A stretch of DNA of 64,000 bases. Origin: Lampris incognitus. Lineage: Eukaryota > Chordata > Actinopteri > Lampriformes > Lampridae. The position numbers and the translations under genes are program-made. The DNA lies in the NCBI RefSeq assembly GCF_029633865.1, contig NC_079219.1, positions 14,735,046 to 14,799,045 of the forward strand, given 5' to 3'. The notes below the pieces were generated by a model. The model was not told the DNA's origin. It saw only the letters and a list, made by a program, of their open reading frames with translations, and did not search any database. Below are positions 1 through 57,700 of the stretch, in pieces (position 1 is the first letter of the stretch; each line of letters opens with the position of its first letter).

Positions 1-2454
1 TTCAAAGTCCAGTTCTGGACCATCCTGCTGTTTTTGGTTACTGCAGGTCTGTAACCTGCACATGTCTGTGCATGGAAGTCCATTTGACAGGCACATGCAG
101 CTTGGCATTTTGCATGAATGCACACACTTGCATGTTAGCATTTCCAAGACCACATCTGGTGCAGGTGGGGAGCGCATCCAGTAAATGGCCAGCTTGCCTT
201 CATCGTCTGTCCATCCATACTCAGTAGGGCTTGGCACCACAGGGTTAGCCTGCAGACAGCACTTCCATATTGCTGCCTGATAGTTGGCTCGTTGAACATG
301 CATAGAGAGACAGTCTCTACATGGTGGCAGCTGGCTGGACTCAACCTCTCCCCTTTTGGTGCAGAAGAGCTGGTAACGCAGTTTGTTCACCTCAGCAGTG
401 CTGCTATTAGCAACATACATCCGACAGGTGAACTGCTCAATTTTCTGGAACAGCTCATCACTCACATTCCATGTCTGTCCCAGTTGACTAAAAGTCTCTT
501 GGCAGGAAGTGTGCTTTCTCACTATCTTCAGGGCATTCAGCTTCCCTCGACCAGCGAATGCACTGACAGTGTCGCAGCCTGTGAAGGCATGTAAGCCAAT
601 TAGGCTGTCACAGATGCTGTCTCCAAGTGAACTTGCCAGTTTGGTGATGTCGACAAACCGTGTGCGGTTCTGAGTCCCATACTTCTGGTAGATGGGACAG
701 GTGATGTCCTTCTGGAAGCCAAGACAAAGCACCATGACATCAGTGTCCTCAGCTGTGATGATAACTGACTTTGAGCCCGCATTTGCTGCATGCAATGCAT
801 GCAGGAGCAGACGGGTGTCAGCTTCTTCATGTGTGGAGTGCAGTTCTGCTGCTTCCTCACACCCATCTTCTGTCAACTTGTAGCAGGTTTCCTCACAGGT
901 CATGTACAACACCTTGCCATGCAGCATAGCTCTGTATCGTGGGAGTTTCCACTCTTCCACCAGAAACTTGATGAGACTGGTCTTGTTGGAGGAACTGCAC
1001 AGAAATTTTCTCCACTGCTGGACATGGTGTCCCCCTGCAAGACTCTTGTACTGGAGAGTGATGTCTCCACCCCGGTTCAGTCGTTCAGCATCTTTGATCG
1101 AAGTCTGGTGACAGACATCAAAAACAACATCAATCCTCCCACTCTGTGCTCCCTCATGGAGGACCTGGGTCAAGGCTGACTCTGCCACCTGTGCAAAGGT
1201 TTTGTTGTTGCCATTCATTTTTTGGACCAGGCTCATCCCATCAATGATGGAAGTAGATGGGATTGGGATGTCTTCTGCCGGAGATACATACTTTTCAAGC
1301 TCTCTGGCAAGTGCAGCCTTGTTTGTTTTTCGTAAGGACCCATCAGCATTTGCCAGTGCCCATGGTAGTGGGCCCAATGGGTAGGCAAGGACATCCTTCA
1401 GATTCACCTTCTTGCTTTCAGCCACCAGGATCATGTGACTGAAAAGGTTTCTATCTGCCTTCAGAACCACATCCTGTGCTTTCTTTCCATGAGCTTGTTT
1501 TGTGCTGACATTGGAGAATGTTTTCAGACTTTGCTTGGTCATCTTGTCGTGGAATTTCACAGGTGGTGGGTCTGCATCTAACCTTGTTTGCTGGAATGCT
1601 TGGTAGGCCTCTTCTCCTTTCTCAAGAGCTCTCAAGAGATCTATGGTCACATCAGGTGGAGCCATGTTGCCAGTGGAGAGGCTAACCAAATCAATCTCAT
1701 CAGGGGACATAGGATTGAGCCAGTTATTCTCCATAAGGTCCATGAGAGACTGGACATCTGCTTCATCTCTCTTGATCCTTGGACTCTGTAGATCTGGATG
1801 AGACCATTTGCACCTGCCTTGACCTGTCAGGTCTCTCAGCTGTCTGAGGTACATGCTTCTATACTCAGCTGTGAGATAATATTTGGTCACAGCTCCTGGC
1901 TTCAAGCTGAATCCCTTTGTCCCTCCAGCTGTTTGGGTGTCTTTGTTCACCGTTTCTTCTATAGCTTGGTCAACAGGGATTCGGCCAAAGGGATTGGTGG
2001 AGCCCAGTTGGACTGAGAAGCCTCCTTCCATGAATTCTGTGTACACATCTGGGTGTGTGATGGGCAGCTCAGACATCTGGGCGTAGTAGTAGGGGAGGTA
2101 GCGTGCATAATTCATCCTGTCATAAGCAAAGCACCATGGGATCATTGCTCGAATGCTAGCCAAGTGTAGCATCCAGTCTCCCTCTCTGGATGCTCGGATG
2201 AGCCCCAACAAGATTTCAACCATGTCCAAATAGGACATCTAGAAGTTCGAGAGGCTGCCGTTTCCACCTCTAAGGAACTCACGGTAGACTTCAAATAGAT
2301 CCATGATGCGTGTACAAGAGCTGTTCTCGAGGACCTCCTTCAAAGCATGTTGTGAGACTTCTTTCCCAAGGCTGTCAATGGTCTTCAGTGTCTCATTCAG
2401 GTGAACCATGTCATTCCTGTGAGTTTCTTCCAACCAGGACAGGAAACCATTCAA
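1..2454 (-). CDS. C-terminal half of unnamed large zinc/PIN-like family protein (open at left edge)
   Basis: This continues the reading frame of the 2461-4632 ORF. With about two breaks, the single minus frame covers 4632 down to base 1 (about 1544 codons) and has no stop at the window edge. From 2238 to 1 it is open throughout (746 codons). Visible parts: a tyrosine-rich segment (RYLPYYYAQM) near 2060-2110; a set of acidic motifs, HEEADT (about 825-840), AEDTDVM (about 737-760) and GCDTVSAFAGRGK (about 545-585), spaced as in PIN/FEN1-like nucleases; and a cysteine-rich tail near 48-135 (CKC, CKMPSCMC, CTDMC, C) resembling CXC/tesmin-type modules. I recognise the sequence as a repetitive, unannotated family of fish and marine invertebrate genomes, but I know no name for it. 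The nuclease reading is inferred from motif spacing only. It could be a mobile element protein or a domesticated multicopy gene. Confidence 0.6.
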
Positions 2455-2460
2455 GGTCAG

Positions 2461-4632
2461 TCACATGAGAGCCTCATACAGGAGCTTGTGTAGTCGCACT
2501 GCCCTGTTGTACTTGCGGCCATCCATAACACCAGCAATTGAGCCTTCTGCAATCATGCCAGACTCAATGCAGAGGTCTTTGAGTCCAGCATCTTGGAAAC
2601 GCTTTCCTATTATTGCCAGCAGTGTGCAGATGGTGTGGAATACCCCAAGCCTAACGATGATATCATGGAACTTGTCATGGTGTTTCCATGTGATCTCGGC
2701 AGCCTTCGCATACAGGGCTTGGTCAAAGACACAGACAATCTTCCTCAGGCCTAAGCACTGCATGATGCTCAGTGACTGGTTAAGCACCTCGTTGACAGTA
2801 GACATTTGTGTCGCTGGAGCATTGATGGTAGGCAGATAGCCTATATTGTCGGGGATGACCGTCATCTCTCCTCGAGTCAGGATGTTGAAGCCTGTCCAGC
2901 TGCTGACTGACTGTTCTTCTTGTTGTGACATGCGTGCTAGGACCCAAAGGAGGTTTTTCTCTCTGGCAAGCTTAGTATTGGCTGCAGTATCGGCATCTGA
3001 CTTTTTGCTTTGTGGTGGCCCTACCCGTTGTCCAGCATTGTAAGTTGGTAACATTGGTGGGGGTCCATCAATGCTTCTCTTCTTTGTTTTGGGAACAGTG
3101 GGCATGGGTTGGACAGGAAGTGGGTTGACTGGCTTTGCTTGCACAGCAATCCCATTGACTCTGTGAGATGTTCCCTCACCACTGACAGTTTCTTCAAGAC
3201 GGTCGATATTGTCCCAGGCTAAAGTTGTGAATATGCCAGAATGGATGTTAGCTGGAAGGGCAATGCCACTCCCTGATGATGAGAGTTTCTGGAGACACAG
3301 GGCAGTGTTGATCTCTTCCATCTGTGAATAGGACACACTGTGACCAAGTCGGTTGAGGATGTTTATCAACTCTACATTTCCTGTCAACGATTTGACACTG
3401 AATGGCAGAACAATGTGCTTGGAAGGCTTGGTACTTCCACATGTCACTGCATATACTATGTCATGGCCAAATGACTGCAGAAGGCACTGCCCTCTCTGGG
3501 ATGCATGATCAGGATCATTTGAGCCTGTGAGTAGAGAGTACAGGAAGATAATGAGCGACTCTGGAATGGTAGGACATTCTGCTTCTGGTTTGACTTCAGG
3601 CGGCCAGGTTTGAGGAACATCTTGACTTTTAATGTCTGCTCTCAATTTGATGGCTGCTTTGGCTATAACATCTTGTGCACTGACACTTTTCAGGGTCTGC
3701 AGCTCCCTTTTGAGAGACTGATTTTCTTTGGCAAGTTCCCTCATGGACAAGTTATCAGGATAGAGGAGGAATTTTCCTTTCTCATCAGGGAATATCTGCA
3801 AGGCTCCAGCAAACTCACTCTCCAGGTTTCGCCTTATGTGCTTCTTGGTTGATTCCTTGACTTGGGCAATGCCTTGGGAGTTCATTGAAGCTACCAGTCT
3901 AGAAGAGAGATCAGTCATTGTCATCACTTGAGGATTGCCAAAAAGCTCCATCCTGATGAAGAGGAACAGCTCATTGTATGCCTTATTCACAGCAGCTTCA
4001 TACTGGGCTGCAGCATCATCATCTTCATTGCTGGCAACCTCTCCTTTGGAAACTTCTTCTTTGGTGTAAAGTCTATAGCATGACCTGTGGTAGTTCCCTT
4101 CAGCTGCTACAAGGTCTCTACTCACAATGGCAAGGATTCTGCTGTCCCTTTTCTTTGTGGCTGCACTCCTGATCTTTGCATCAGCTCGCAGTTCTCGACA
4201 CTGCACCAGTACTTCTCTCGTATTCTGTCTCTTGGAATATTTGCTGTTTTTCTGACAAAATGTGCACTCTGCATCATAAGTCCTAGATGTACTTGGAGCA
4301 TGTCGAGCTACTCTCTTAGATGGTTTCTCTTCAGCAGAGACACAACTTTTCTTTTCTTTTGCAAGGAGGCCATCAAGAATTTGCTTCATAGTGAAGATAC
4401 TGCGACACTTTCTGTGGTAGTAGATTGCTGGAATCTGTCCCTCAGGAATGTCTTTTGCCAGTTTCAAAACTGGTGCATGATTTTGTATCTGAGCTGCCCT
4501 GTGCAGAGTTCTCCATGAGTCGACACTTTGTAGTGAAACCAGCTTATCTGTATCATCAGAACAGTGGATAATGCACTCCACCCGTGGGCGCTTTGGTATT
4601 GGGTAAAAACTTGCTTGTTCACCAGTGGCCAT
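2461..4632 (-). CDS. N-terminal half of the unnamed large family protein (723 codons)
   Basis: This single-exon 723-residue ORF starts at the ATG at 4632. Two similar metal-binding-like modules are visible. In the first, C20, H23 or C24 pair with H73 and C76 in a YHRKC motif. In the second, C123 and C126 pair with H182 and C185 in a YHRSC motif followed by YRLYT. Both share the pattern C-x2-C ... YHxxCxxxxT, which suggests a duplicated zinc module. A Lys/Glu-rich stretch of about 45 residues near residue 300 (ENQSLKRELQTLKS) looks like a short coiled coil. No reverse transcriptase, tyrosine recombinase or classic DDE pattern was seen. The same frame continues in the 1-2454 segment after a break. 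The lack of introns over more than 4.6 kb, next to intron-rich genes, suggests a mobile or retrocopied origin. Function is unknown. Confidence 0.6.
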   Translation of the reverse strand: MATGEQASFYPIPKRPRVECIIHCSDDTDKLVSLQSVDSWRTLHRAAQIQNHAPVLKLAKDIPEGQIPAIYYHRKCRSIFTMKQILDGLLAKEKKSCVSAEEKPSKRVARHAPSTSRTYDAECTFCQKNSKYSKRQNTREVLVQCRELRADAKIRSAATKKRDSRILAIVSRDLVAAEGNYHRSCYRLYTKEEVSKGEVASNEDDDAAAQYEAAVNKAYNELFLFIRMELFGNPQVMTMTDLSSRLVASMNSQGIAQVKESTKKHIRRNLESEFAGALQIFPDEKGKFLLYPDNLSMRELAKENQSLKRELQTLKSVSAQDVIAKAAIKLRADIKSQDVPQTWPPEVKPEAECPTIPESLIIFLYSLLTGSNDPDHASQRGQCLLQSFGHDIVYAVTCGSTKPSKHIVLPFSVKSLTGNVELINILNRLGHSVSYSQMEEINTALCLQKLSSSGSGIALPANIHSGIFTTLAWDNIDRLEETVSGEGTSHRVNGIAVQAKPVNPLPVQPMPTVPKTKKRSIDGPPPMLPTYNAGQRVGPPQSKKSDADTAANTKLAREKNLLWVLARMSQQEEQSVSSWTGFNILTRGEMTVIPDNIGYLPTINAPATQMSTVNEVLNQSLSIMQCLGLRKIVCVFDQALYAKAAEITWKHHDKFHDIIVRLGVFHTICTLLAIIGKRFQDAGLKDLCIESGMIAEGSIAGVMDGRKYNRAVRLHKLLYEALM

Positions 4633-4776
4633 ATTCAGTCAGTTTTCACCTGCCACATACAAACAAATACATGTAACTTAGGTGTATGAACACTACTAAA
4701 ACAAAGTTTACTTTGCTTCACCAGCGTCATATTACCATTATTTATCTTACATAGCCACAAATAGATACATTACCTA

Positions 4777-4789
4777 GTTGCTATGCAAC
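4777..4789. promoter_or_regulatory. RFX X-box-like inverted repeat
   Basis: GTTGC-TAT-GCAAC is a perfect 5-bp inverted repeat with a 3-bp spacer, about 145 bp upstream of the ATG of the unnamed gene. It resembles the X-box bound by RFX factors. A 10-bp palindrome can occur by chance, so this is only a candidate. Confidence 0.2.
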
Positions 4790-4914
4790 AGCTGTATTTT
4801 GTCCACATGAGGCCGCTAAAATCAACACAAGATGAAAGTTCCTCGTAGCCACTTTAACTAATCATATTAACATATACATTAAAAGAACATGCTAACATTA
4901 TGGGAAATTAGCTT

Positions 4915-5230
4915 ACAATCTTCTCCAGAGTGAGACAAGAAGATAGATACCAGTTTCCTCTATATGTGTTTAGTAGAAAGCTATCTGGCTGCACGTTAGC
5001 CTAGCTTAGCACAATGAATGGAAGTACACAGTACTGGTTATCCTTGGTTGTTGGCCAACTAAGAACTGTCCCAGAGTTTAAGCTAGGCTAATCAGTACCA
5101 GGGGTGTTGAAATGCTATATTTGTAAAAATCTGGGCAAATACACAATCGTGAGAGGCACAGAAACAGGTTTCCTGAAAGAAAAATGAAATAGCTGCTCAT
5201 TTGGAAAGGTTATCATGTATTATTTTACTT
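4915..5230. repeat. Fish-type interspersed repeat (short non-coding)
   Basis: The phrases 'tctccagagtgagacaag', 'gttagcctagcttagcacaa' and 'gctaggctaatcag' are typical of short interspersed repeats common in teleost genomes. Recognition is from memory of such sequences. The boundaries are approximate and the class (MITE or SINE) is not settled. Confidence 0.3.
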
Positions 5231-5920
5231 CTGTTAGTGTACCAAATAAAATGGCACCAGTGAAGTTGTGTCACCTTGGGTGATATCGATATCTGGTCTG
5301 ACCCATGGACTAACTGGCTTTGGTCTAGTTAGTTTCTTAGTAATAATGCCCTTCTAATTTAAGGTTCACAGTCACCTCACACAATGAAATAGTATGGGTA
5401 TATTATACATTTCCTGAATCTTTACAGTCCTGTGAGTATTCCAGTTTTTGTGTTTTGTGTCCCTGATATTCCTAGATGCCACAGGGCTAAAAGAAAGTGT
5501 ATAGTTTAGGCGAACATTGCAGAAAGATGTGTGTTATTGACGGGTTGAAGAGCTCAAGTGACCTCTATATTTGTGAGAAATATCCACAACAGGGCTTGAA
5601 TGAAAGCTAAGAAGGTCCCCTTTAAAATGATACCAAAGACAATATTATAGAACATTGAAAAATGTCCTGACCATGAGGCTAAACCAGGATATGCACCAGC
5701 GTCTAAAATGCAATTTACTTTAGGGGGTGGTTAACTTCATGAGCTGATAACTGTGATACAGCTGCCACTCAGGAATGGTTATCATACCAAAATATCATCT
5801 ACAGACATGGATCCTTTCAAAAATTATAAGTAAGTTTTGCCACCTTGAGTGTACCGAAATAGGAAATTTTGGGCTCTGGCCCATGGACTATATGAGGTCA
5901 GCTCCTTAACCCATGAACAC

Positions 5921-6129: not shown

Positions 6130-6333
6130 TATCAAAGGAAGTTGAATCAGTTCATCTGGACACAACGTTTATTGAGAGAGAAACGTTTCATCACTCATCT
6201 AAGTGATGTCCCGATGTGCACATCCTTGATAGGAGGGCCGCTGGTTTGAACGGGGAATCAAAGAGGCCAGCTATGTGAAGAGGGAATGACCATCACTGAA
6301 CCGGGGGTGGGCTAAGAGTGCATCTGTCACTAT

Positions 6334-6820
6334 TGTAGCGAAGTCGGAGGACAACGCAACCACAGGAACTGCCGCGGCCGGGAAGCAAACAAGTATCGCC
6401 CGCACCGCAGGAGACATCGCTAACCGCTCGACTAAAGGGTCAGACCCGCCACCCAGCGGCCAACGTGTCTTCTTATCCATGCACGTTACACTACCGCCCT
6501 CCTTCGGGAGGCGCGTCCCCGCGCTTAAGCGTATCAGCTCCTTCACGCCGTAGGGCGCATGCGCTTCCGATGGCCTTACGGTCTTTCCATCCCACTTCTG
6601 ACACCAATGTAGCGAATACGGGGGACAACGCAACCACAGGAACTGCCGCGGCCGGGAAGCGAACCCGTATCGCCCGCGCCATTAGACACGCTGGCCGCTG
6701 ATTGGCGGGTCTGACCCTTTAGTCGAGCGGTTAGCGATGTCTCCTGCGGTGCGGGCGATACGGGTTCGCTTCCCGGCCGCGGCAGTTCCCGTGGTTGCGT
6801 TGTCCCCCGTATTCGCTACA
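6334..6820 (-). mobile_element. LTR miniature (TRIM-like), rearranged copy
   Basis: Read on the minus strand, this contains a 157-bp LTR (6334-6490), a 117-bp internal part (6491-6607) that begins with the tRNA-Leu primer site, and part of a second LTR (6608 to about 6680). That second LTR is fused to an inverted LTR in plus orientation ending at 6820. The unit is flanked by ctat at 6330-6333 and ctac at 6821-6824, a likely 4-bp target duplication inside the Penelope 3' tail. It has no coding capacity. It is a non-autonomous fossil with one inversion-type rearrangement. The LTRs carry tRNA-like A and B boxes (see the 21921-22321 copy). Confidence 0.65.
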
Positions 6821-6929
6821 CTACCTTACAATGATGTGATTGGAAATATTCCCAAATCCTCTGTGAATAGTACACATGGCCATTGTAACTCTAGTTAATG
6901 GTCACAAAAATGTGCATACCCTGTAGGAA

Positions 6930-7196
6930 GTGGAAAAGAGGGCTCTGATGTCCTATCCAGGGACAACACTTGGCCATTGGCTCAGATTTGTGGACGACAC
7001 CTGGGTTAAAATTAAAGCTCTTGATGTACCACCTTTCACCGACCACATGAACTCTGTGGACAACCACATCAAGTTCACCAGGGAGGAGGATGTGAAAAAT
7101 GGCAGGTTAGCCTTCTTAGACTGGGAAATTGCAATTGGTGATGGGGGACATTTGATTGCTGACGTTTACCGTAAACCAACACATACTGATCACTAA
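6930..7196 (+). pseudogene. Penelope reverse transcriptase fragment
   Basis: The 88-residue ORF contains FVDDTW (the RT catalytic YVDD-type box), DNHIKFTREED, LAFLDWEIAIG and VYRKPTHTD. These are hallmark strings of Penelope-like RT C-terminal domains. The RT N-terminal part is missing. A short direct duplication of about 18 bp, ttaagtgtggttatccta, follows near 7325-7372. This is a dead fragment. Confidence 0.75.
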
Positions 7197-7568
7197 AGTT
7201 TGACTCTCATCATCCACTGGGGCACAAACTAGGAGTCATCAGGATGCTGTACCACCGAACTCACAACGTCCCCATCAACACAGTGGCCGGGGAAGAGGAG
7301 AAATCCCACATTAAACAGGCCCGGGTTAAGTGTGGTTATCCTAACTAAGCATGTTAAGTGTGGTTATCCTAAGACAGGAGAAGGACAACAGTTGCCTAAG
7401 CGTTAAACCAGTGGTGAGTCCATAAGTGGCGGAAAAAATCAGATGGGTATTTTCAACACACCGCGTCTCAGTTGCTTTCAAACCCCAAAACACACTGTGC
7501 CAGAAATTAGTCTACCCCAAGGATCGGGTCCCCCGGCACAAACAGAGCAATATAGTGTACACTGTTAA

Positions 7569-7881
7569 GTGCTAGGAGGAATGCCGTGACTTGTCCATTG
7601 GGGAAACTAAACAGACGCTGGCCAAGAGGATGGCACAACACAGGAGAGCTAACACGTCAGGCCAGGACTCCACCGTCTACACCCATCTACAGGCCAGTGG
7701 CCACTCTTTCAAGGATGAGGCTGTGCACATCCTTGATAGGGAGGAACGCTGGTTTGAACGGGGAGTCAAAGAGGCCATCTATGTTAAGAGGGAACGACCA
7801 TCCCTGAACCAAGGGGGGGCTAAGAGTACATCTGCCACCATCTTACAATGCTGCGATTGCAAACATTCCCAAATCCTCTGA
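7569..7881 (+). pseudogene. Penelope GIY-YIG endonuclease domain remnant
   Basis: The protein reads SIGETKQTLAKRMAQHRR ... ILDREERWFERGVKEAIYV. This matches the GIY-YIG-type endonuclease that follows the RT in Penelope-like elements, including the conserved RM.QHRR helix and the ERGVKEAIYV motif. The GIY part upstream is degenerate. It follows the RT fragment in the expected order with a collapsed linker between them. Confidence 0.7.
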
Positions 7882-7979
7882 ATAGTGCGCATGGCCGTTG
7901 AAAACTGTACTTAATGGTCAGATGCATATTTGTATATGAAACTAGTCGGTGGTTTCGGTCGTTATACCACTGTGTTGTT

Positions 7980-8167
7980 TATAAGGGTGAGGATACCTGC
8001 AGTCAGTTTAGACTGAAGAGGTCACTTAGACGAGTGATGTCCTGATGCATGCTCAATAATAAGGTTGAATCAGTTCATCTGGATACGTTTATTGACAGAT
8101 ACATTTCATAACTCATCTACGTGACCTCTTCAGTCTAAACTGACTGCAGGTATCCCCACCCTTATAA
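7980..8167. repeat. Penelope terminal inverted repeat pair
   Basis: Arm 7980-8032 (contains cctgcagtcagtttagactg) is the near-perfect reverse complement of arm 8115-8167 (contains cagtctaaactgactgcagg). The short stretch between them holds the gttgaatcagttcatctgga end motif. Mixed inverted and direct terminal repeats are known for Penelope-like elements. Confidence 0.65.
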
Positions 8168-8640
8168 ACAATAGTTTCATATGCAAATGTAGGCGTGACC
8201 ATTAACTAGAGTTTCAATGGCCATGTATTCACACAGGATTTTGGAACGGTTGCAATCACAGCATTGTAAGATGATGACAGATGGACTATTGATTGTACCG
8301 ATTGTTGATGTTTACCATAAACCAATACATACTGGTCAGTCCTTAAGGGTCTGACTCTCATCATCCACTGGAGCACAAACTAGGAGTCATCAGGACGCTG
8401 TGCCACCGAGCTGACACTGTCCCCACCGACACAGCAGCCGGGGAGGGGGAGAGGGGTCACTTAGATGAGTGATGAAGCATATCTGTCAATAAACGTTGTA
8501 CCCAGACGAACTAATTCAACCTTCTTTGATTAGATGAGTGATGAAACATTTCTCTCAATAAACGTCGAGTCTAAATGAACGGATTCAAATTTCTCTTGAT
8601 TTTCTTACCTGGATTATTGAGTGTGCATAAGGACATAATA

Positions 8641-9114: not shown

Positions 9115-10615
9115 TCATAGGTTCATGGGAGGCGGGGTAGTCACCTGTTTGAGCTGTGTGTCTGTTGGTATCTGAGCAATACAGGTGTCAGATGGTAGCT
9201 GGGGTGAGGTAGCTGGTCTAAAATGTCCTGGTACCCTCCCCACAGTGCTGTTTGTGGACAGGTGCCCCAGACGAGGGTCCGAGTCGATCTCATAACGGTA
9301 GTGATACCCCTCCATCACATCCCGACAAGCATCTCTTGTGTCTATGATCCACTTTTTCATGCCTTTGCGGTTGAGATAGAGCACCAAAAGAAAGACCATG
9401 CCGACAAACCCCAGCACCAGCCCCAGGAAGACGTAGGATGTCTGTAGGGAGAGGTCAGTCACCTTGGCTGGGGCAGCTACACTGCAGCCAATGGCCTGGA
9501 TCCCAAGCCCTCGCAGACTAGCATTGTGCAATCCTCTGGGTGAGGCGCACCTCGCAGCTTCTACATCTGTCACCTGGGCCCAGGAGTTGTTCAGCCAGGC
9601 CACCAAGTCACGAATCTCACAAGAGCACATATAGGGGTTGTGACCCAGCAGAATGTGGCCGTGTCCCAGCCTCCCAAGCTCTCCCAGCGCGTCAGCCCCA
9701 AAAGTCCTGAAGGCATTGTGGGTCAGGTCCAGCACCTCCAGGTGCTTCAGCCCAGAGAAGGTGCCATTATAGACAGCTGCCAGATAATTACTAGTGAGGA
9801 GGAGGTGCTGCAGGTTGTGAAGTTGGGAGAACATTCCTGGAGGCAATAGTACTAGATGGTTTCCAGAAAGGTCCAGGCGGAGAAGACCCCCAAGGCCACC
9901 CCAGCGCAGGGCAGTGGCGAGGTCGGTCAAAGAGGTGGAGTTGTACAGTGACTGGCTGAGGTTGAGCTCCTGAAGAGGACTGCCTGGTATACTAAGAGCC
10001 TCTGGATGGATCAGTGCCAGCTGGTTCCCGCTGAGATCCAGAAAGCGCAGGTTGGACAGGGCAGAGAAGCTGTGGGACGCCACCTCTGAAATACTGTGAA
10101 AACGGCTAGACACTATAATAATCTGTCTTCAAACATTCAGCGTTTATTACTTTTATGTTTGGATTACATTTTAAAGATCAATAAAAATCTTTAGTGTTTA
10201 CCAGTAACAGGGTCAAAGTAACACACATTCACAGAAACACAGCACTTATTTCTTCAGATACATATCAGGGGAAGCTACAATCATATTATTTGAACGCCAG
10301 TCAAATTTCAATCAAGACATATTTTGAATGATAAACAAACAGACGATATCCTCACCTGTTATTGCTTAAAACGAGATTGGTGACATTCTCCAGTTCTGTG
10401 AATGAACCAGGTCCAATCCCATAAATTTTGTTTCCTGTGACGATTACAGTCCTTGCATATCCTGGGATACGTTGCGGCATCGTGCGTAGGTCCTTACGGA
10501 TACATTTCACCGTGCGTGTGGCAGCAAAACACTCGCAGCCAAAAGGACACTCCGTACACTGGTATGGTGCACAAAGCAGTACACCCAAAAATACATGGAT
10601 CACAAAAAAGTACAT
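9115..10615 (-). CDS. Trophoblast glycoprotein-like (5T4/Waif) LRR membrane protein, 2 exons
   Basis: Exon 1 is 10356-10615 and exon 2 is 9115-10093 (GT-AG intron, about 260 bp), giving 412 residues against 420 in human TPBG. The start at 10615 begins a signal peptide (MYFFVIHVFLGVLLC), and an acceptor-like ttgtttacag just upstream supports it as the first coding exon. Order: signal peptide, cysteine-rich LRR N-cap (CPFGCEC), leucine-rich repeats (LRFLDLSGNQL, LLRLDLSGNHL, LEVLDLTHNAF), LRR C-cap (NPYMCSCEI ... LVAWL), a TM segment at about 305-327, then a cytoplasmic tail with the family signature TRDACRD and MEGYHYRYEI. Mammalian TPBG ends in SSNSDV, a PDZ-type end. Here the equivalent STNSTV is followed by about 40 further residues. 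TPBG/Waif1 is known to inhibit canonical Wnt signalling at the plasma membrane. Which paralogue this is cannot be decided from the sequence alone. Confidence 0.85.
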
Positions 10616-11811
10616 ATTTAGACTGTAACCTGTAAACAACAAAGACCTTTTTTTTTCCAAGTTCAGAACAGCAAAATATGACCCGAAATGTAAGAAATCT
10701 TTACTACCAAGCAAAAAACAAAAAACTCCAAACCTAAATGTTGTCAGATTTTTCTGTAGGAAACAGCTTTTACACTAAAAAATAAATGTATAGTGGCATG
10801 GGTGGAAAGTGCTTTGCTTTCATCCTTCTACATCTGCTGTGCTGTGGAAATAAAGATCCCAGTAAGCTGATGGTAGTTCATATCACACTGAATCCTGTGA
10901 AGGCACAAAAAAAAGTGTGGTTCTCTTAAAGGTACAGCGTATGAGAGCATCACCGGTGACCGACCGACTCAAGACGGGGTGAACATAAAAAGAACTTTGC
11001 ACAGAGTACTTCCCATAATGATCGTTCCACAACGCAACACCAATCAATTGATATGGCATATGTATAAAACAATAGTTTTATTTAGAAATACACAACACCA
11101 AAATAAACACAATACATACTCAAAAACACAATACTGCAATGTAGTATTGCCCATTGTTTGCAAAACTCAACGCGACAGGCAAACGGGCTGCACGTTTCCC
11201 AAGCACAGAAGTTCTGTGTGGAAAACGGCTAACAAATATTTGGTACAAAAAGGGGACATGGGAGTCAATTTCACAAGACAAAACTGGCATTTTTCAGATG
11301 TGGGTATTTTGATAGTGTTCCTTTGATAGTGTTCAGATGTTAACTGTCAATACTTGAGATGCATATCCATTTTGTGCTGATATAACACCGCTATAAAGAT
11401 CCAGTTTACCTTAAACTATACAATAGATTTAAAAGATCACTGCAGCCTGAAAAAGCCTTGCTAAACTCAACAGCGTTGCTTTTCCTCTGAAGGGTTTGGA
11501 TTTTGTGATTCAGCATCTAGTGGGGAGGCCGTTCCCAAGGTTTCATGTTATCAAAGCTAAGGATGGCGCCTCGCTGTTGCAGCGGCTCCTGTTGTGTTTT
11601 CATTTTTCATCACTTTATTTTCTTGTTCATGTGTTTTTTTTGTTTGTTGACTTTTGTTTCAGTGAATTAGCAGCAATGGGTACTTTTTGTTTTGCCACTT
11701 TTCTCATGGTTCTACTGTTAGTTTTTACACTCTTTGTAACGGAGAGCCATGCGGAGAGAAGTGAGGGGATTGTTTACTCATGAGACCAGCTGATCACATT
11801 GAGTAAACCAC
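10616..11811. other. Intergenic, no gene recognised
   Basis: This is the 5' flank of the tpbg-like gene, probably including a non-coding first exon. The rest is AT-rich with only short, unconvincing ORFs. The 95-codon ORF at 11496-11783 is hydrophobic and resembles no family I know. No promoter element could be assigned. Confidence 0.4.
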
Positions 11812-18000: not shown

Positions 18001-21000
18001 TCATGACACCCAGGATTCAGACAGACTTTGTGGGCACAAGTTTGGTTGATCCAAGCTGAATATTGATCTGTTGTTGTAGGGATGGCCTGGCTGGGGTGAC
18101 AATGAGCTCAGTCTTAGATAGGTTAAGCTGAAGGTGGCATTCTTTCATCTATATAGAGATATCAGCCAAGCATGACGATATCCATGCCAAGACTGTGAGG
18201 TCATCTGGCAGGAATGATAGGAAGAGCTGGGTATCGCCAGCATAGCAATGGTATGAGAAACCATGGCAGTGAATGATTGCACCAAGTGAGATAGTGTATA
18301 TTGAGAAGAGAAAGGGACCGAGCACTAATCCTTGAGGCACCCCTGTGGATAAACCATGCAGTTTGGACACTTCTCCTCTCCAAGATACTCTAAAAGATCT
18401 CCCTGAGAGGTAGGACATGAACCAGCTGAGGGCAGATCCTGAGATACCAAGCTCAGTGAGCGTGGAGAGGAGGATTTGGTGGTTAACCATGTCAAAGGCA
18501 GCTGACAGATCTAGCAGCAATAAAAGATGAGGACTGACCAGCAGCTCTAGCCAAATGCATCGATTCTATTACCGACAGGAGTGCAGTCTCGGTAGTGACC
18601 CCGTTTAAAGCCAGACTGATTCGGATCGTACAGATTGTTCTCAGAAAGGAATTCAAAGACTTTGTTAAAGACCTTGCACTCAGGGACGTCCAGGTAGCAT
18701 AGCAGTCTTTATTCCATTGCCTACCAACATGGGAATCACCGGTTCAAATCCCTGTGTTACCTCCAGCTTGGTCAGGCGTCCCTACAGACACAATTGGCCG
18801 TTTCTGCAGGTGGGAAGCCGGATGTGGGTAAGTGTCCTGGTCCCTGCACTAGTGCCTCCTCTGGTCGGTCGGGGTGCCTGTTTGGGGGGGAGGGGGAACT
18901 ATGGGGGAATAGTGTGATCCCCCACATGCTATGTCCCCCTGGTGAAACCCCCCACTGTCAGGTGAAAAGAACGGCTGGCGACTCCACAGGTATCGGAGGA
19001 GGTATGTGGTAGTCTGCAGCCCTCCCCAGTTCAGCAGAGGGCGTGGAGCAGCGACCGGGACAGCTCGGAAAATAGGGTAATTGGCCAGATACAATTGGGG
19101 AGAAATCCCCCCCCAAAAAAAGACTGTGCGCTCAATATTCTTGATAGAAAGGATAGGAGTGAAACAGGTCTGTAGTTTTCAACCTGGGTTGAGTGTAGGT
19201 TTTTTGAGCAGCGGGGTGACCCAAGCTTGCTTAAATGCAGTGGGGAACACACCCATTGTAAGTGAGGAGTTGATGTGTGTGACTGTGGGGTCAAGTACGG
19301 GGGAAATAGTCTGTAGGAGGTTTGATGGTATCGGCTAAGAGACAGTGATAGTCACTGAGGTCAGTGAACGCTCTGGTTTTACACCATTTTCTCCGCCACT
19401 CTGAGCCTCGCCCTTTGATGACCTCAGTGAGCCATGGACTGGGGGGGGGGGTTATGAGCAGGTTTGGATGCTAGAGAGCAGAGATTGTTAAGAAAGGGTG
19501 CTAGTGAGGAACAGTGTGTCTATGATACATACTATACAAACAATGTGCACATGGACCAAAAATATTTACCTGACATGTTTTCCATGAATGAGAGAAAGCA
19601 GACAGAGGTTAACCATGTTCCAGGATGTACTGTTGTCGTAGCGCATTAGGTTGAGAGCCATGGCTACATGGGAGTGGCAATTATCACAGCACAGATTGTG
19701 CTAGAAAAAGAAAAACACATAAAACAAAGGAAGCAGCGATGCTGTACATATTTAAATAATTATACTTAATATTAAATTATCATATTTCTAAGGACATCAA
19801 AATACAGTTCTAAGAATTACCCCAAAAATAAAAGTACATTTATGGTTGTAAACACCATGTCAGAAGACAATCTTTTACATGAGATACGCCATCATACCGG
19901 CCGGCATTTGTATTCCTCAGAAGCATCATGGATGGCTTTATCCCATGTTGCAGGACCACTGCCACAGACCTTGTCCACATCGAGCTTCCAATACCTTTGC
20001 AAAAATAATTTTTCTCATTTAGATTTTTTTTAAAGCTTTGATTAAATTCATAGATCTGATGTTGAAATGCAACCAATATGCTGGATAGAAACAATTTTAA
20101 AAACTTACTTTGTTGGTCTACCGAAGCCCATGTTATCCTCCTGAGAAAAAAAAAAACAACCTGAAATTAGTTAACAAGAACGTTTTAATTTAGGATTTTA
20201 CCTTTGCTTGAATGGATCTCACCGATTACTGTATCTACAGGTCAAATGGATATCACAAAAAGAGTTAGAGTGTAAAAAAATTAATAAAGTAAACAAATGA
20301 TAGATTAAGTTTGTTTGAGTTGGCGTCCACTATCTTTCATTGGGAATACACCAGCTCTTGCCTTTACATTACAAATCAGACTGATGGCAAGTGGCCTTGG
20401 TACTTGGAAAGCTTTCTTGGTGGACCCACTTCAGCCAGTGGAATAAAGGGTGGTGTTCCTTTCCAATCTACTATGCACAATAGGTGCACATCATGCTTGA
20501 CTCACCGAGACAAAGTATGATCCTGCAAAGTCTCGTATGACGCCGGAAGAGGTACAGATACCCATGTGACCGATAAAGGGGAGCAGCCACCTGCATGACG
20601 CATTCACAAAAAATAAGGGGGGGGGGCAGCGGTTAAGTGTCAGTCAACCTGTAGACTTCATTGTTAAGCCCAGTGAAAGACGGCGTCAACGCTATTATAG
20701 TCACACAAAAGTTTTCAGATTTGATATTTGCATTTTCTGCCACAGTCTGCTAGTCAACGTGTGATGTTAAAAATCTTAATTTATCTAGCAGAGTGCTGGT
20801 CTTCCGTCTAAGCAGCTAACGTCGTCGCATTCAATGACAAACAATAACAGCGACCCAATAGCAACAGCCAAAAAGGAAAGAAAAACCGGATAAAATACAC
20901 TTACGATAAAATAGGAATAGGTGTCCAGACCACGCAATAAGGATAGCGGCTATTTATGCGGTCGATTTTCTCGAAACCCCCGTGGTAATTCATCATTACG

Positions 21001-27362: not shown

Positions 27363-30300
27363 GGCTAAAGCTAACTACAATGCTCAGATAGGATGCTTTA
27401 ATGCACAGTGAAAGGGTCTCAGAGTGACGTTACAATTCCAAAATCATCATTGCTTTCCCTCCTGCCACACCAAAGCCTGTATACCAGTGAATCGAACACA
27501 TTCCTACCTGTGACACGGCAAGGCACTGGAATCATCTCAATACAATAGCAGATGAAATTCCACCACAGCTGGAGTGTGAAATTGGCCTATTAATAGGCTA
27601 CAATTGCTCAAGGGCACTAGCACCACAGCAGGTAATCTTAGAAGGAGAAGGGAAACTATATGCAGTTTACATAGAAATATGGAGTATTGTTGGTTTTTCC
27701 TCACCACATCATGACTCAACAAGCATCACAAACGTGCCAGAGTCGCTGTCAAAGAGCTCCCTCTAGTGACTACAGCAGATGCTATTAAGGTTCCTGAGTC
27801 TGATTTTAAGGATGACAGCAAAGATAGCAAGACAGTTTCTCAGGGCGACAATCTTCCTGAACATGTTAAAGGAAGGAATCTACAAAAACGTGAATGGATG
27901 CTATGAAATGCCACTCCCCTTCAAAGAGAGACCCTACCTCCCAGACAACAAGCAACTAGCCATTGTCCGGCTCAGTCATCTCAAAAGAAAAGTGTTAAAA
28001 AATTACATGTATAAGGAACGGTACGTGAAATTTATGAATGAGGTCATTGAAAAGGGTGATGCAAAGGAAGTTCATGAAGAGGGGAAAAATTATATATTCC
28101 TCACCATGGGGTCTATCACCCTAAAAAAAAACTCCACATGGCCTTTGACTGCTCTGCTCAGTACATGGGAACAAGCCTGAATGATCACCTATTGACAGGC
28201 CGACCTGCTAAATAATCTGAATGACGTTCTCATCAGATTCAGACAGCAACATATTGCCCTAATGTGTGATACTGAGAAGATGTTTCACAAATTCCATGTT
28301 CATGAACCTGACAGAGACTATCTACTTTTCCTCCGGTGGAAAAATTTAGTCCTGAATGCTGAGCCACAGGAATTTCACATGAAGGTTCATCTATTCAGTG
28401 CTGCGTCATCACCCGGATGTGCCAATTATGGATCGAAACATCTTGCTAAAGAAAATAAGGCTCCGTTTCCCCTTGGCTCACAGTTTATTATGAAAGACTT
28501 CTGTTGATGGTGTAACAAGCACGGCAAACACAGATGAAGCCATTCAGCTTGCAATGAAAGCCAAGAAGATCTGTGATACAGGTGATCTGAGACTGCACAA
28601 GTTTGTGTATAACAACAAGGCAGCGTTAGAGACTGTACCTCCATCTGAGCTTGCCACTGAAGCAAAAGCCCTTGACCTGGCCCTCAATGATTCAAATTTC
28701 GAGAGAGCCTTAAGAATCCATTGGCACATTAAATCTGACATTTTCAGATATTGTGTTCACCCTAATGGCCAACCAGCCACAAGGCGTAGCATGCTAGCCA
28801 CAGTTGCACCCCTTTAATCAGAAAAACATGTGCTCCAAGAAACACAAACAAGGCACAGGCTGGGATGACCCTCTCCCCAGTGAACTGAAACCAGTGTGGG
28901 AAAACTAGAAAAGTGATATTGCAAATTTGGGGGGGGGGGGGGGGAAATCATCATACCCCACTGTTACTTGCCTCCTGACTTTGGACAAGTTGTGAAAAAG
29001 AGCTCCATCACTTATCTGATGCAAGTACATATGGTAATGGCCAAGAAGGAAATGTACATTGCGTTCTGGTGATTGCAAAGTCCAGTGTAGCTCCCATTAA
29101 GGTCATAACGATACCCAGATTAGAACTGACAGCTGCTGTTGTCTCAGTTGCAGCAAGCAACACCTTAAAAGATGAGCTTGGACTGTCAGATATAGATGAG
29201 TACTTCTGGATGGACTACAAGGTGGTTCGGGGGTACATAAACAACGAAGTTCGCCATTACCACATATTTGTGTCTAACAGGGTGCAAAAGATACCTCTCA
29301 GTACCTCTCCTCAGCAGCGGAGATACATCCCTACTGATCAAAACCTTGCAGACATTGCTTCAAGTGTAAGTGAGCTTGCTACATCTAACTGGTTTACAGG
29401 ACCTCAGCTCTTTTGATAGAAAGAGATACCTCCAGCTGCGGAAGTCATCACAGGAATACCAATCGGGGATCCAGAAGTCAAAAGGATCCAGACACCAAAT
29501 ACACTGAAAACAGAACATGCAAGTCTCTCACACCGACTGTCAAAGTTTTCTTGTTGGTATAGAGCCACTCAAGCCATAGCACAGCTCGTCAGTTGCATCA
29601 AGGAAGACAAATCAGCATGTCACAGCACTGTTCAAGAAAGTGAGTGTGTATGGAACATCCTCATAAGAGATGTACAAAGACAATGAAGAGGAGATAAGGA
29701 TGCTCAAAAAGAGGACTCCACTTCCATCTCAGAGCAAACTGTTTCAGCTTGATGCTTTCCTTGATCAAGATGGACACCTCAAGGTGGGAGGAAGATTGAA
29801 AAATGCATCACTTCCTTCTTCTTTGAACCACTCAGTGATCATCCCATCACCAGAATAATAATAGCTTATTATCATGAAAAGGTCCAACATCAAGGTAAAG
29901 GCCTAACTATTAATGAGATAAGAGCAAATGGATTCAGAGAATGAACAAGAGCTATTGCATCATATGTGCATCAGCGTGCTAAATGTCGAAAACTGAGGAA
30001 ATACACAGAACATCAGATCTACCGTCAGAATGGATAGCTCCATCATCACCATTCACTTACTGTGGAATGGACTGTTTGGTCCTTTTCTCACGAAGCAAGC
30101 ACACAAAGTTCACAAGCGATATGGCGTTCTTTTCACATGCTTTCTTTGTCGAGCCATTCACAATTGAAATGTTGGATGATAGGTCGACATATGCCTTTAT
30201 TAATGGACTTCATTGCCATAAGAGGGGCAGTATGTCAAATAAGATGTGATCAAGGAACTAACTTCGTTGGAGCTGCAAATTAACTTTGTGAGGCTTTAAG

Positions 30301-46100: not shown

Positions 46101-49100
46101 GTGACAGTGGTGAGGTGTGCGGTTGGAATGACAGGTGGGTAAGAGGTGGAGGTGGGATTACATTAAGGATCAGCTCTGAGCCCTTTGTTGTTTGCAATGG
46201 TGAAAGACAAGTTGACAGACAAGATCAGGCAGGAGTCTTCATGGACCATGATGTTCGCGGATGACATTATGATCTGTAGCAAGAGTAGGGAGAAGGCTGA
46301 GAAGAGCCTGGAGAGGTGGAGGTATGCACTGGAGAGAAGAGGAATGAAAGTCAGTAGGAGCAAGACAGAATACGTATGTGTGACCGAGAGGGAGGACAGC
46401 AGAATGGTGAGGATGCAAGGAGTAGAGGTGATGAAGGTGGATAAGTTTAGATACTTGCGGTCAACTGTTCAAAGTAATGGGGAGTGTGGAAGGGAAGCAA
46501 AGAAGAGAGTAAAGGCAGGGTGGAGTGCGTAGAGAAGAGTGTCAGGATTGATTTGCAACAGAAGGGTACCAGCAAGAGTTAAAGGGAAGGTCTATAAGAT
46601 GGTAGTGAGATCAGCTATGTAGTATGGTTTGGAGACAGTGGCACTGATGAAAAACAAAAGGCGGAGCTGGAGGTGGCAGAGTTGAAGATGCTAAGAATTT
46701 CATTGGGAGTGACGAAGGACATGATTAGGAATGAGTATATTAGAGGAACAGCTCAGGTTGGATGGTTTAGAGACAAAGCAAGAAAGGCAAGATTAAGATG
46801 GTTTGGACATGTGTGGAGGAGAGATGTTGGGTATATTGGGAGAAGGATGCTGAAGATGGAGATGCAAAGCAAGAGGAAAAGAGGAAGGCCAAAGAGGAGA
46901 TTTATGGATGTGGTGAGGGAGGACATGCAGGTGGCTGGTGTGACAGAGGAAGACACAGAGGACAGGAAGAGATGGAAATGGATGATCCACTGTGGCAACC
47001 CCTAAAGGGAGCAGCCAAAAGTAGTAGTAGTGTTTAGTATTCAATGTGAGTATTTAGTATTTAGATCAGTCCAGTAAGAACAGCATTGACGCTGTGTACA
47101 CCGGTACTCATTAATCGAGCACCTTGCCCCTGTTCCCCACCTGACTCTGTCTTGGAGAATAGGGCAGCCTTGATGTCTTTATCCAAGGCATCGCAGGCAC
47201 TGCTATGGGCTTGCTCTGGGAACTTCCCCTTGAAGTCGTCTAAGCACTCCAGTGCCTCAGGCACATACTTCAGCTCAAACAGGCAGCGTGCCAGCCTGAA
47301 ATGAGCCTTGAGATGCCCAGGGTTGAGAGTCAGGGCTTTCAGACAGTCCCTGAGTGCATCATAATGGTCACCATCCCTATGAATCACAAATACACACACA
47401 CACACACTTACCAACTTCATTACTGCATTTAAAGGCTTTTCACAGAGGAATTTGAAGCACCCCTCTGAGGAGTTTTAACAACATCAGGACCTGATGTGGC
47501 CTACCATTTACGTTTCATGTAGGCTGCAGCACGGTTCCCGTATAGCATGGCATTGCGGCTGGCCTGATGGATCCCTAAACTATAAAGCTGGATTGCCTGG
47601 GTCCACTGCTGCCGTGCAAATGCGTCATTAGCTTGTTGTTTTATTCTCTCCAAGTGAGGGGGGAGCTCGCTAGACCTAAGAATAAAAGACAGGTATGGGA
47701 AAGACAGGCTATACTGAAAACGAAACCCCTTAAACATGATTATAAAATCTACATACACACAGCCTCCCACCCATGATCATGTATGTCGAACATCCCTTGT
47801 GACCTCATCTTGTCAGTGCTACTGTTTCATTTCAATATACTTTTATGCATTTGGCTTTTTAACCATTTTCCATATATTTCTTTAAATCATTAAGATTCTG
47901 TTAACCATTTTTGATGTCTTTCATGTTAAAGTGGGGCTTTTTGGGGGGGAAGGTTTCATTTAATTTCCTTTCTGTGTTTGAAGCCAAGATGTTTTTACAA
48001 GAACTGCTTTTTATCTCACTTGTAGTAATTCATCCTTTACTTCTTGTGTTTTCAATCATTTTATTTTTATCATTAGATTTTTAAATCTATATCAATTCAA
48101 TGTTTTATCACTGTGCAAATAAACAACTAAACAGTTTCTGAGAGGTTGGAAAGACAATGGTTACCCAGTGCAGATCTTGCTTTCAGCTAATCGGAGGCGG
48201 CTGGCAGGCAAGTGAATTCCATTTGATACTCCATTGGTTGTCTTACCATTCTGTACATCTGTCAGGATATCAAAGTTATACAAAGGGACAGATATAATTT
48301 TCTATACAATTCAAAGTAAGGTTGCCTGTGCTATCTATCAGGTATAGATGGTACTGTCCTACCTGTTGATGATTGGCACTTTTTTGGAAGCAGCAAGGTA
48401 TATGGCCTCTGTTTAAATGTCAAATCAAACAGATACACCTGCAGACCCCACAAAAAATAAACAAATATCAACCATTATAATACTATAAGAGAAACTAAAT
48501 GACAGCCCCCTGACTCTATTCTCCTGTTTTTCCAATCGGGCAGTACCTGTTCGCCACCCATGTTAACTAGCAGTTCAGTACCATCAGGACTGAAGGTGAC
48601 ATAAGTGGCAACCAGCACCCTCAGGCGGTTGCTGTAGTCTGGGAGTTTCACTGGGAGGTGTCCTGGGAAAGAGTGGAAGAAACGGAGGGAATATTATTTT
48701 ATCAACTCTTTAAAAGCCAGTTTATATCTGCACATATCACTGTGCTGTACTTTTGTACATGGTGCAATTTAGACAATTAAGAAATATTCACACCTGCAAC
48801 ATAATACTGTCCAGCTCCATCTGGAATGGGCTTCTGCCTGTCACAGAAGGTGTGCACAGCAGCCGATGTGCTCTGACTCACTGATTTCCTGCAGAAAGAA
48901 AGATAATCATGTCCCATTACAAAATATCCATTTGTGCATCAATGTCAAAACCTGGACTAAAGAACTTTGAAAAAGCCCATGGCTGTTAAATGACAAGGTC
49001 TGAGCTCCTACAGATCTTCTCATTCAACATCCCAAAATGTTCCAACTCTTAAAATTCTTGGTTCACTATGAAGCGTTTAGTCAATATTCAGTATCATGTA

Positions 49101-54760: not shown

Positions 54761-57700
54761 ATGACCACCCCGCAAAGATATATTGAATCCAAACCGTCAG
54801 GTAAGTCAGAACTCACAAGAAATCAAACTACATTGCCCATGTGTCAGTTGGCTCGCCAATTGTTCAGTGTTTAACATCAAATGTATTTTAGTTGGGTTCA
54901 CTGACACGGAGTGGCAGACACCAGCTGTGTCCGAGAAGTTCAAGAGCTGGATTGGCCGCAGGCCTGGAACAACAAACAGTGGGGACACTGGTCTCGGCAC
55001 CTCAGCATCTGATGGCACAGAAGGTGACAGCCTTTTCTTCCTCTGTGTTATGTAATATGTGGACGTATGTTTAACGTGTCTGTCCTATCAGCAATTATGT
55101 GCCAGTTAACAATAAATTCATACTGTCAAAGTTATGTGACTTAATGGTGGCAATATTCTTGTGAGCTACCTGTATACAAGGTATTGATATTAAGGAAGCT
55201 CCAGCATTACATATACTATCGGATATTTTGATTAAAACATGCTTTTGTCAGTGTGCAATATTAAGTCAGTTTTGTTTATATAGCCTTCAATCACAGTTAT
55301 TGTCACAGAGGGCTCCCCATTCCTACAATGAGAAACAGGTAGATGGAGCAAAACAACACCTCAGATCCTCAGACCTACTATTTGGATGATGAAAAACTCT
55401 ACAGAAAATCTATTCAAGATAAAAATAGGAGAAACCTTAATAAGATTATCGAAAGGAGTTATCATTCTTCCAGGAGGGATAGGTGTACAACAGATGCCGA
55501 ACATTGCTGAGTGGGTACTGTCCTTTTATAGGCTGTGAGAAGTGACTCTCTCGAACACATATGCACATACACAGATCAGCCAAAACATTAAAACCACCTG
55601 CCTAATATTGTGTAGGTCCCCCTTGTGCCACCAAAACAGCTTTGACCTGTTGAGGCATGGACTCCACAAAACCTCTGAAGATGTCCTCTGGTATCTGGTA
55701 CCAAGATGTTAGCAGCAGATCCTTTAAGTCCTGTAAATTGCGAGGTGAGGTCTTCATGGATAGGACTTGTTTTTCCAGCGCATCCCACGGATACATGATT
55801 GGATTGAGATCTGGGGGATTTGGAGGCCAAGGCAACACCTTGAACTCTTTGTCATGTTCCTCAAACCATTCTTGAACTATTTTTGCAGTGTGGCAGGGTG
55901 CATTATCCTGCTGAAAGAGGCCACTGCCATCAGGGAATAGTGTTGCCATGAAGGGGTGTACCTGGTCTCCAACGATGTTTAGGAAGGTGGCACGTGTCAA
56001 AGTAATGTCCACATGAATGGCTGGACCCAGGGCTTCCCAGCAACATTGTCCAGAGTATCACACTGCTTCCACCGGCTTGCCTTCTTCCCATGCATCCTGG
56101 TGCCATCGCTTCCCCAGGTAAACGATGTGCACACACCTGGCCATCTACATTATGTGCAAGAAAACATGATCATCAGACCAGGTCACCTTCTTCAGCTCCA
56201 TGGTCCAGTTCTGACGCTCAAATAACGATTGTAGGTGCTTTCATCAGTGGACAGGGGTCATCATGAGCACTCTGACCAGGCTGTGGCTACACAGTCCCAT
56301 ATGCAGCAAGCTGCGATACACTGTGTGTTCTGACACCTGTCTTTCATAGCAGCATTAACTTTTTCAGCAATTTGAGCTACAGTAGCTCTTCTGTAGGATC
56401 AAACCAGACGGGCCAGCCTTTGTTCTCCACAGGCATCAATGAGCCTTGGGCACCCATGACCCTGTCACCGGTTCACCAGTTGTCCTTCCTTGGACCACTT
56501 TTGGTAGGTGCTGACCACTGCATACTGGGAACACACCACAAGAGCTGCTGTTTTGGAGATGCTCTAACCCAGTCGTCTAGCCATCACAATTTGGCCCTTG
56601 TCAAAGTCGCTCAGATCTTTACGCTTGCCCATTTTTTCTTCTTCCAACACATCAATTTCAAGAATTTACTATTCACTTGCTGCCTAATACTATATCCCAC
56701 CTCTTGACAGGTGCCATTGTAATGAGATAATGTTATTCACTTACCTGTCAGTGGTTTTAATATTTTGGTTGATCAGTGTATATAACACAATACAATATGC
56801 AATAGGATCACTACATTTTCTGTGTTGTAGTTGGGAAAGCAAACATCATCTTACAGTTTTTGTTGTTGTGTCATAGACTATATATAGAGTGAGAAATATA
56901 TTCATGGTCCTCGGATGCACTGGAGATTTGCAGGGGTGGATTATATTCCCAGCCAAAAATGCCCCAAGGCTCTGTTCCATTGCTGTGGTGCTGAGCCTAA
57001 TTAGGTGGTTGGGCATGTGGGGTAATGGGGAGGATATCAGGATTGGACAGCTAAATGGAAACCATGAATCTTTCCCGAGTGTCATATGGAGAGGTTTTAA
57101 TACTATCATGGTTTCAAATGGAACATTAGTTGAATGCTTCATTTAGAGATGTAAAATCCCATTGGAAACTCTGTTTCTGTTTCCATTCATAAATGAGTAT
57201 TATAAATTGGCGTATATTTTGTTAACGGATAGTTGTATTCCATTCATGCAAGTTGGTGCTGTTGGTACTGCGTTTATAGTTGCAGCACCGTAACCAATAA
57301 GTGTCTTGAAACATGAGTCTTGACTCCTACTTGAGATATAATGCTGACCCTACAATCATTGATATTGCATACTATAATCATTTGGATGGAAATATTAAAG
57401 GGGACTCAAGATCCCTTTTCTAGAAAAGCAAATTGATGTCAGTTTTATGTAATCTGTGTTAAGTTTTCAGAGGCAGGAAGGTTGGCAGGATAAGCAGCAT
57501 GCATGTGAGGGATGTTCTTTTTCTGAGCGAGTAGTTTAGACTTGTTCTAGCCAGTCTTGAATCACATGAGCCCGGAGGCAACTTTTACACTCAAGGTTTA
57601 CATGGAACTTGATGATATTGCCAGAATAATTTTGCATGTGTTCTGTAATTGCTGTTTTTCCACAGTAGTTGCAAAGATCTACAGGTTCTTCTGAGGTTAT

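Follow-up and report, generated by a model that had tools for sequence, protein, structure and literature searches.

A degenerate member of a young DNA transposon family in Lampris incognitus, very probably Academ, with a DDE-like block and a putative XPG-type nuclease region

Within the Academ superfamily of DNA transposons, two lineages are described, namely AcademX (defined in Repbase and by Kojima 2020, as cited there), with an encoded nuclease and target duplications of 3 or 4 bp, and AcademH, with a helicase and duplications of 9 or 10 bp (PMC10045372). Academ elements have been reported in Xiphophorus fishes (PMC4705583) and in bivalves (PMC10294476), and in another superfamily, Kolobok, the lineages are described as carrying a number of accessory nucleases and helicases that are unrelated to one another (PMC9587614). 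The present work concerns a stretch of 64,000 nucleotides from the fish Lampris incognitus (C12:14735046-14799045), hereafter termed the window, at the left edge of which a long frame is found on the minus strand. This frame belongs to a degenerate copy of a cut-and-paste DNA transposon that amplified recently, very probably one of the Academ superfamily and its lineage AcademX. No account of the element was found in the literature searched, and one may exist elsewhere in print.

The genome (1.48 Gb, 537 contigs) was searched with the C-terminal half (C half) of the encoded protein, and 60 of 3644 first-look candidates were scored, a sample that is not a copy total. One of these 60 is the copy in the window, and the remainder, at 99 % identity, amount to at least 59 further copies, in line with the multicopy nature proposed in the initial annotation. 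The listed frame is at least 1558 amino acids long in 29 of the 60, but in three of these 29 a TGA falls within the match, so that 26 remain. Whole sequences were obtained for 19 of the long-frame copies, a sample picked for open frames, and for the window copy, and comparison of these 20 revealed the unit that hosts the frame, a DNA transposon of 6790 bp in both the window copy and copy L014. It starts with TAGTCCATGGGCCAGAG and ends with TCTGGCCCATGGACTA; similarity between copies ceases outside these ends, both of which are present in 19 of the 20 copies, L017 being without the left one. The window copy (genome place C12:14734146-14740935) occupies positions 1..5890 on the minus strand, its right-hand ~900 bp falling past the left edge; the feature is longer than delimited in the initial annotation.

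The element is bounded by terminal inverted repeats of ~530 bp. In each of 19 copies, the two repeats are 97.4-99.3 % identical to one another, with 10 additional bases at the left tip. In the window, the left repeat (~540 bp, 5351..5890, minus strand) is 97.7 % identical to its right counterpart and is adjoined at 5891..5893 by the 3-bp target site duplication ATA, the partner of which lies beyond the window (flanks ACCTCATA / ATAAGTGC). A relic inner terminus, that is, a diverged second tip, is located just inside the inverted repeat at 5191..5312 on the minus strand (element 579-700 in L014; 66 % identity to the right end, E 1e-6; low window coordinate estimated from the L014 alignment), as if the outer repeats had been added later, outside an older end. 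The left end of L049, in turn, bears the right-type tip CCATGGGCCAGACGATATTTCGG, as if converted by the other end.

Insertion is accompanied by a 3-bp target duplication. Forty of the 60 scored copies were sampled for flanking repeats (20 fetched whole, 20 via their ends), of which 34 had two recognisable ends; the six dropped from the count comprise L017 as well as the end pairs that begin with L037, L043, L047, L049, and L061, with one end visible and the tip changed in L037, L049, and L061. In 27 of the 34, the element is flanked by a direct repeat of 3 bp, as compared to a mean of 0.91 when left flanks are re-paired with wrong right flanks, while repeats of 4 bp occur in none and of 5 bp in one. 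An exact empty site is moreover available because one copy (L053/L054, G000:C2:98359808) is nested in another copy of the same element, near its gene start. When its flanks are joined with a single 3 bp, the resulting junction is spanned in 20 loci at 97.4-99.5 % identity (L013, the window copy, among them), and it is gap-free in the three printed alignments (L032, L014, and the window). The joined flanks of L021, L025, L027, and L029 likewise span repeats elsewhere, at lower identity and less cleanly. A separate observation concerns L051, the left flank of which lies inside the element and the right flank outside. Inverted repeats, 3-bp duplications, and the exact empty site bear out the mobility that the initial annotation had suspected.

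The frame itself comprises 1544 codons (window 4632..1) with two stops, much as first described: codons 1-723 are open, codon 724 is TGA, codons 725-797 are open, codon 798 is TAG, and codons 799-1544 form an open stretch of 746 codons reaching the window edge. When the dinucleotides were shuffled 300 times, even the best of the six frames always contained at least 38 stops, and no open stretch exceeded 256 codons. The final 14 codons of this one-exon gene (1..4632, minus strand) lie beyond the window. According to our own translation, the frame is an uninterrupted single exon in all 19 further copies, in keeping with the lack of introns noted initially, and the full protein measures 1558 amino acids in 18 of them and 1573 in L025; the window copy is unable to make it. 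Two zinc-like modules (4078..4575, minus strand; motif reading) stand at the residues originally given, 20-76 and 123-185; the second, CTFC (123-126) with YHRSC (181-185), has the C-x2-C form proposed for both, but the first, CIIHC (20-24) with YHRKC (72-76), is C-x3-C. The motifs HEEADT (1268-1273), AEDTDV (1294-1299), and GCD, the last inside TGCDT (1351-1355), were likewise recovered as annotated, as was the cysteine-rich tail CKCVHSCKMPSCMC (residues 1501-1514; 91..132, minus strand), which is CXC/TCR-like (Pfam TCR at E 0.36, under the family cut-off). Overlooked at that stage were the transposon ends, a DDE-like block, and the additional PIN-like motifs IIDG (1129-1132) and VVFDV (1169-1173).

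The DDE-like block, a candidate transposase domain, covers approximately residues 470-725 (2467..3216, minus strand) and includes WDNID (473-477), D637 within VFDQALYAKA, and GVFH (663-666), with E696 or E720 as candidates for the third acid. Diverged relatives of the element were sought using a degenerate HA(F/L)TGCDT pattern from which the element family's own alanine codon was barred; it gave 122 genome matches versus 0 when read backwards. Thirteen of 100 listed pattern places were fetched, and all of them match the C half (tblastn E <=1e-3, search space set at 100 kb). With 98 % identity to the query, L076 belongs to the same family, L078, L081, and L085 share 45-69 %, and the other nine ~24-37 %; several of the 13 are frame-broken. 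Nine entered the C-half alignment (L073, L075, L076, and L079 were left out), in most rows of which IIDG, VFD..S.K..ER, NK..L, EEADT, DTD, HA.TGCDT.S...G.GK, and the tail cysteines are kept, with cysteines 1503, 1507, and 1525 invariant in the rows extending that far.

Upstream DNA was compared for seven relatives, six of which match the N-terminal half (N half) and one of which, L090, gave no match. Three of these stretches (L089, L091, and L092) extend over the DDE-like block, including D637 and R.G..H, down to 22 % tblastn identity, and D637, K643, A644, R661, G663, H666, G676, D681, G683, and L684 are invariant in the four covering rows (the query included). Partial matches comprise residues 387-511 only in L086 (too short to align), 94-191 and 794-918 in L087, and 763-960 only in L088. 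The YH..C and C..C modules recur in the upstream stretches L087 and L091, and zinc modules, DDE-like block, nuclease motifs, and tail are found together at one further locus (L091 with L083), the others being partial. Two of the relatives, L073 and L083, located on different contigs, share a near-identical 84-amino-acid stretch around HAFTGCDT and are themselves only ~30-36 % like the query, and five listed places on one contig (G000:C6 61.2-62.6 Mb) have L083's 23 bases.

The putative PIN/XPG-type nuclease region (541..1248, minus strand), delimited from the relatives' alignment and a weak Exonuclease 1 profile match, contains in sequence IIDG, VVFDV..SIK..ER, NK..L, HEEADT, AEDTDV, TGCDT, and GRGK, which corresponds to the motif order of the conserved acidic residues of FEN1. 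The PIN/FEN1-like order claimed initially is kept in the diverged families. A profile (A1) was built from eight regions, i. e., the query and seven of the nine aligned relatives (frame-broken L078 and L085 left out), with members 29-54 % identical to the query. Invariant across its rows are D58 of VFD, D182 and D184 of DTD, and D240 of GCD; exceptions occur in the IID aspartate, lost in L084, and in EEAD, broken in L080 and replaced by NDAD in L083. Ten matches at E <=10 were obtained against PDB sequences, the four best being Exonuclease 1 (E 0.010-0.028) with VFD..K..ER followed by GCD..S.L.G.G in the same order. The next ones, TDP2 (0.084), polymerase alpha subunit B (0.11), and RimO (0.14), are taken as chance. 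In Pfam, the eight members matched four families with one member each (E 0.098-0.27), and the 5_3_exonuc_N match at 0.26 is given no weight because unrelated families score equally well; a single-sequence search of PHROGs returned nothing above noise. As a weak positive, the profile match and motif order suggest that the element may encode a nuclease, as the initial annotation had supposed, beside its transposase.

The copies of this element appear to be young. Divergence from the majority base amounts to 0.24-0.52 % among 19 full copies (mean pairwise 0.66 %), and 381 of their 401 minor variants are private to a single copy. Such low, star-like divergence is what a single source sequence would yield if it had been amplified recently, and the burst is considered recent on these grounds. 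Vertebrate neutral rates are a few per 10^9 per year, which would place the burst at an age of the order of one million years or less. The private changes in the gene comprise 163 replacements, 70 silent changes, and 2 stops, both in the window copy, the 18 others having been selected for lacking stops; the replacement-to-silent ratio is 0.90 of the no-selection expectation and is biased downward because all copies were chosen by protein score.

A conceivable mechanism would assign a part to each of these regions. The zinc modules, and perhaps also the cysteine tail, may bind the terminal repeats, the DDE-like domain would cut and join the transposon ends with a 3-bp stagger, and the XPG-type nuclease domain might trim DNA flaps or branches at either the donor or the target site, this last step being the least certain. 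Since both ends are kept in the window copy, it may still be moved by protein from other copies. More tentatively, and with the odds rather against it, this could be a vertebrate Academ transposon that is still active or has very recently stopped, and that needs a built-in flap/5'-nuclease for end processing in cut-and-paste transposition. To our knowledge, the Academ superfamily is known mostly from sequence, and no study has put the role of such a nuclease to the test in any Academ element. The many near-identical copies with intact genes make it testable why a DDE transposase would carry an XPG-type nuclease. The case also illustrates that a transposon protein missed by Pfam may lie behind a long unannotated frame such as this one.

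Several points weigh against this interpretation. The full DDE-like block was not found in four of the seven upstream stretches (L086, L087, L088, and L090), the catalytic triad expected of an RNase-H-like fold would consist of two aspartates in conserved motifs plus an uncertain third acid, and a DDE profile built from four sequences only was without any PDB match. The match to Exonuclease 1 is weak (whole-sequence E 0.01; E 26 and 6.1 for the two stretches alone); Pfam, NCBIfam, and single-sequence PDB searches show no domain above noise, and two single-sequence AlphaFold models are unusable at mean predicted local distance difference test scores of 33.3 and 35.6. A perfect 3-bp duplication is absent in seven of the 34 copies (L014, L015, L027, L030, L045, L051, and L069), although for L027 the surrounding repeat, which also occurs without an insertion in the window, points to a duplication of 3 bp in which a single base has changed. 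The filing under AcademX, while probable, is based on the traits described for this lineage. This leaves some room, if not much, for a cut-and-paste transposon of a different superfamily with an independently acquired XPG-like nuclease, comparable to the other nucleases acquired by Kolobok lineages. Counted against it is the signature DNI..LEET.SG.GT.H, which we take to be Academ-like. The variety of unrelated accessory nucleases and helicases in Kolobok (PMC9587614) lends such a scenario plausibility, as does a likeness to Academ by description instead of by sequence, whereas the 3-bp duplication and the nuclease agree with what is described for AcademX (PMC10045372).

Within the protein, the nuclease motifs are the easiest to recognise, and the DDE assignment is based on motifs, so that an element moved by the nuclease itself might be envisaged, which would be the undescribed type of the initial annotation. 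We regard this as very improbable: the combination of inverted repeats with clean insertion and a duplication fixed at 3 bp is typical of DDE enzymes, and D637, R661, G663, and H666 are invariant in the four covering rows. Given the DDE-like block and the AcademX traits described (nuclease, duplications of 3 or 4 bp; PMC10045372), the label 'undescribed' is probably wrong. Many copies with long intact frames could also be expected of a host repair or defence gene family spread via segmental duplication, yet this has next to no probability, as the copies have exact common ends, no similarity beyond them, and 3-bp duplications, and as their private changes are near neutral. A host gene, a repair-gene pseudogene, and a retrogene are ruled out by the exact ends, the duplications, and the empty site. 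The earlier idea of a captured defence or repair gene is unsupported, with a DDE-like block present and AcademX described with an encoded nuclease (PMC10045372). The reading as an AcademX-type transposon is preferred.

Searches of further sequence collections added no relatives: none was confirmed in the viral contigs scanned, and neither the C half against phages nor the N half against plasmids gave a match. Four stretches from a scan of genome contigs were rejected, three with tblastn matches at noise level and L002 with E 0.001 in a tiny database and its pieces out of order; the frame of L002 looks, in our view, like a fumarase. Adjoining the element, window positions 6221-8290 are crowded with inverted and repeated stretches and contain a frame that we take to resemble a Penelope-like element; Pfam gave no match on 6927-7193. 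Further features are a leucine-rich-repeat gene in two frames (9115-10774, minus strand; Pfam LRR), which we assume to be trophoblast-glycoprotein-like, and a tetratricopeptide-repeat exon of a host gene (47061-47474, minus strand; Pfam TPR), perhaps, by our own guess, WDTC1-like. Domain matches also point to fragments of a reverse transcriptase (18149-18565, minus strand), a Pao retrotransposon peptidase (28979-29416, plus strand), and a DDE_3 (Tc1-like) transposase (55602-56057, minus strand). The genes and repeats next to the element are in keeping with a fish host.

The nuclease of AcademX is XPG-like, and the element described here combines an exactly 3-bp duplication and inverted repeats with an XPG-type nuclease region. 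With the XPG/Rad2 nucleases EXO1 and FEN1, this region would share the motif order IID, VFD..K..E, EEAD, DTD, and GCD..S...G.GK, but it differs from them in being fused to a transposase-like half and in its only weak score to Exonuclease 1. KolobokD, KolobokE, and KolobokP resemble the element in that a DDE transposase is accompanied by an accessory nuclease, whereas their nucleases are of the DEDDh, lambda-exonuclease-like, or His-Me type and not PIN/XPG (PMC9587614). AcademH would be part of the same superfamily if the Academ assignment is right, and is distinguished by its helicase and duplications of 9 or 10 bp, as compared to 3 bp and no helicase match in a Pfam scan of the element protein here. 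The closest likeness is probably to AcademX, with which, by description only, the element shares an encoded nuclease and a target duplication of 3 bp that falls within the 3 or 4 bp given for this lineage (PMC10045372).

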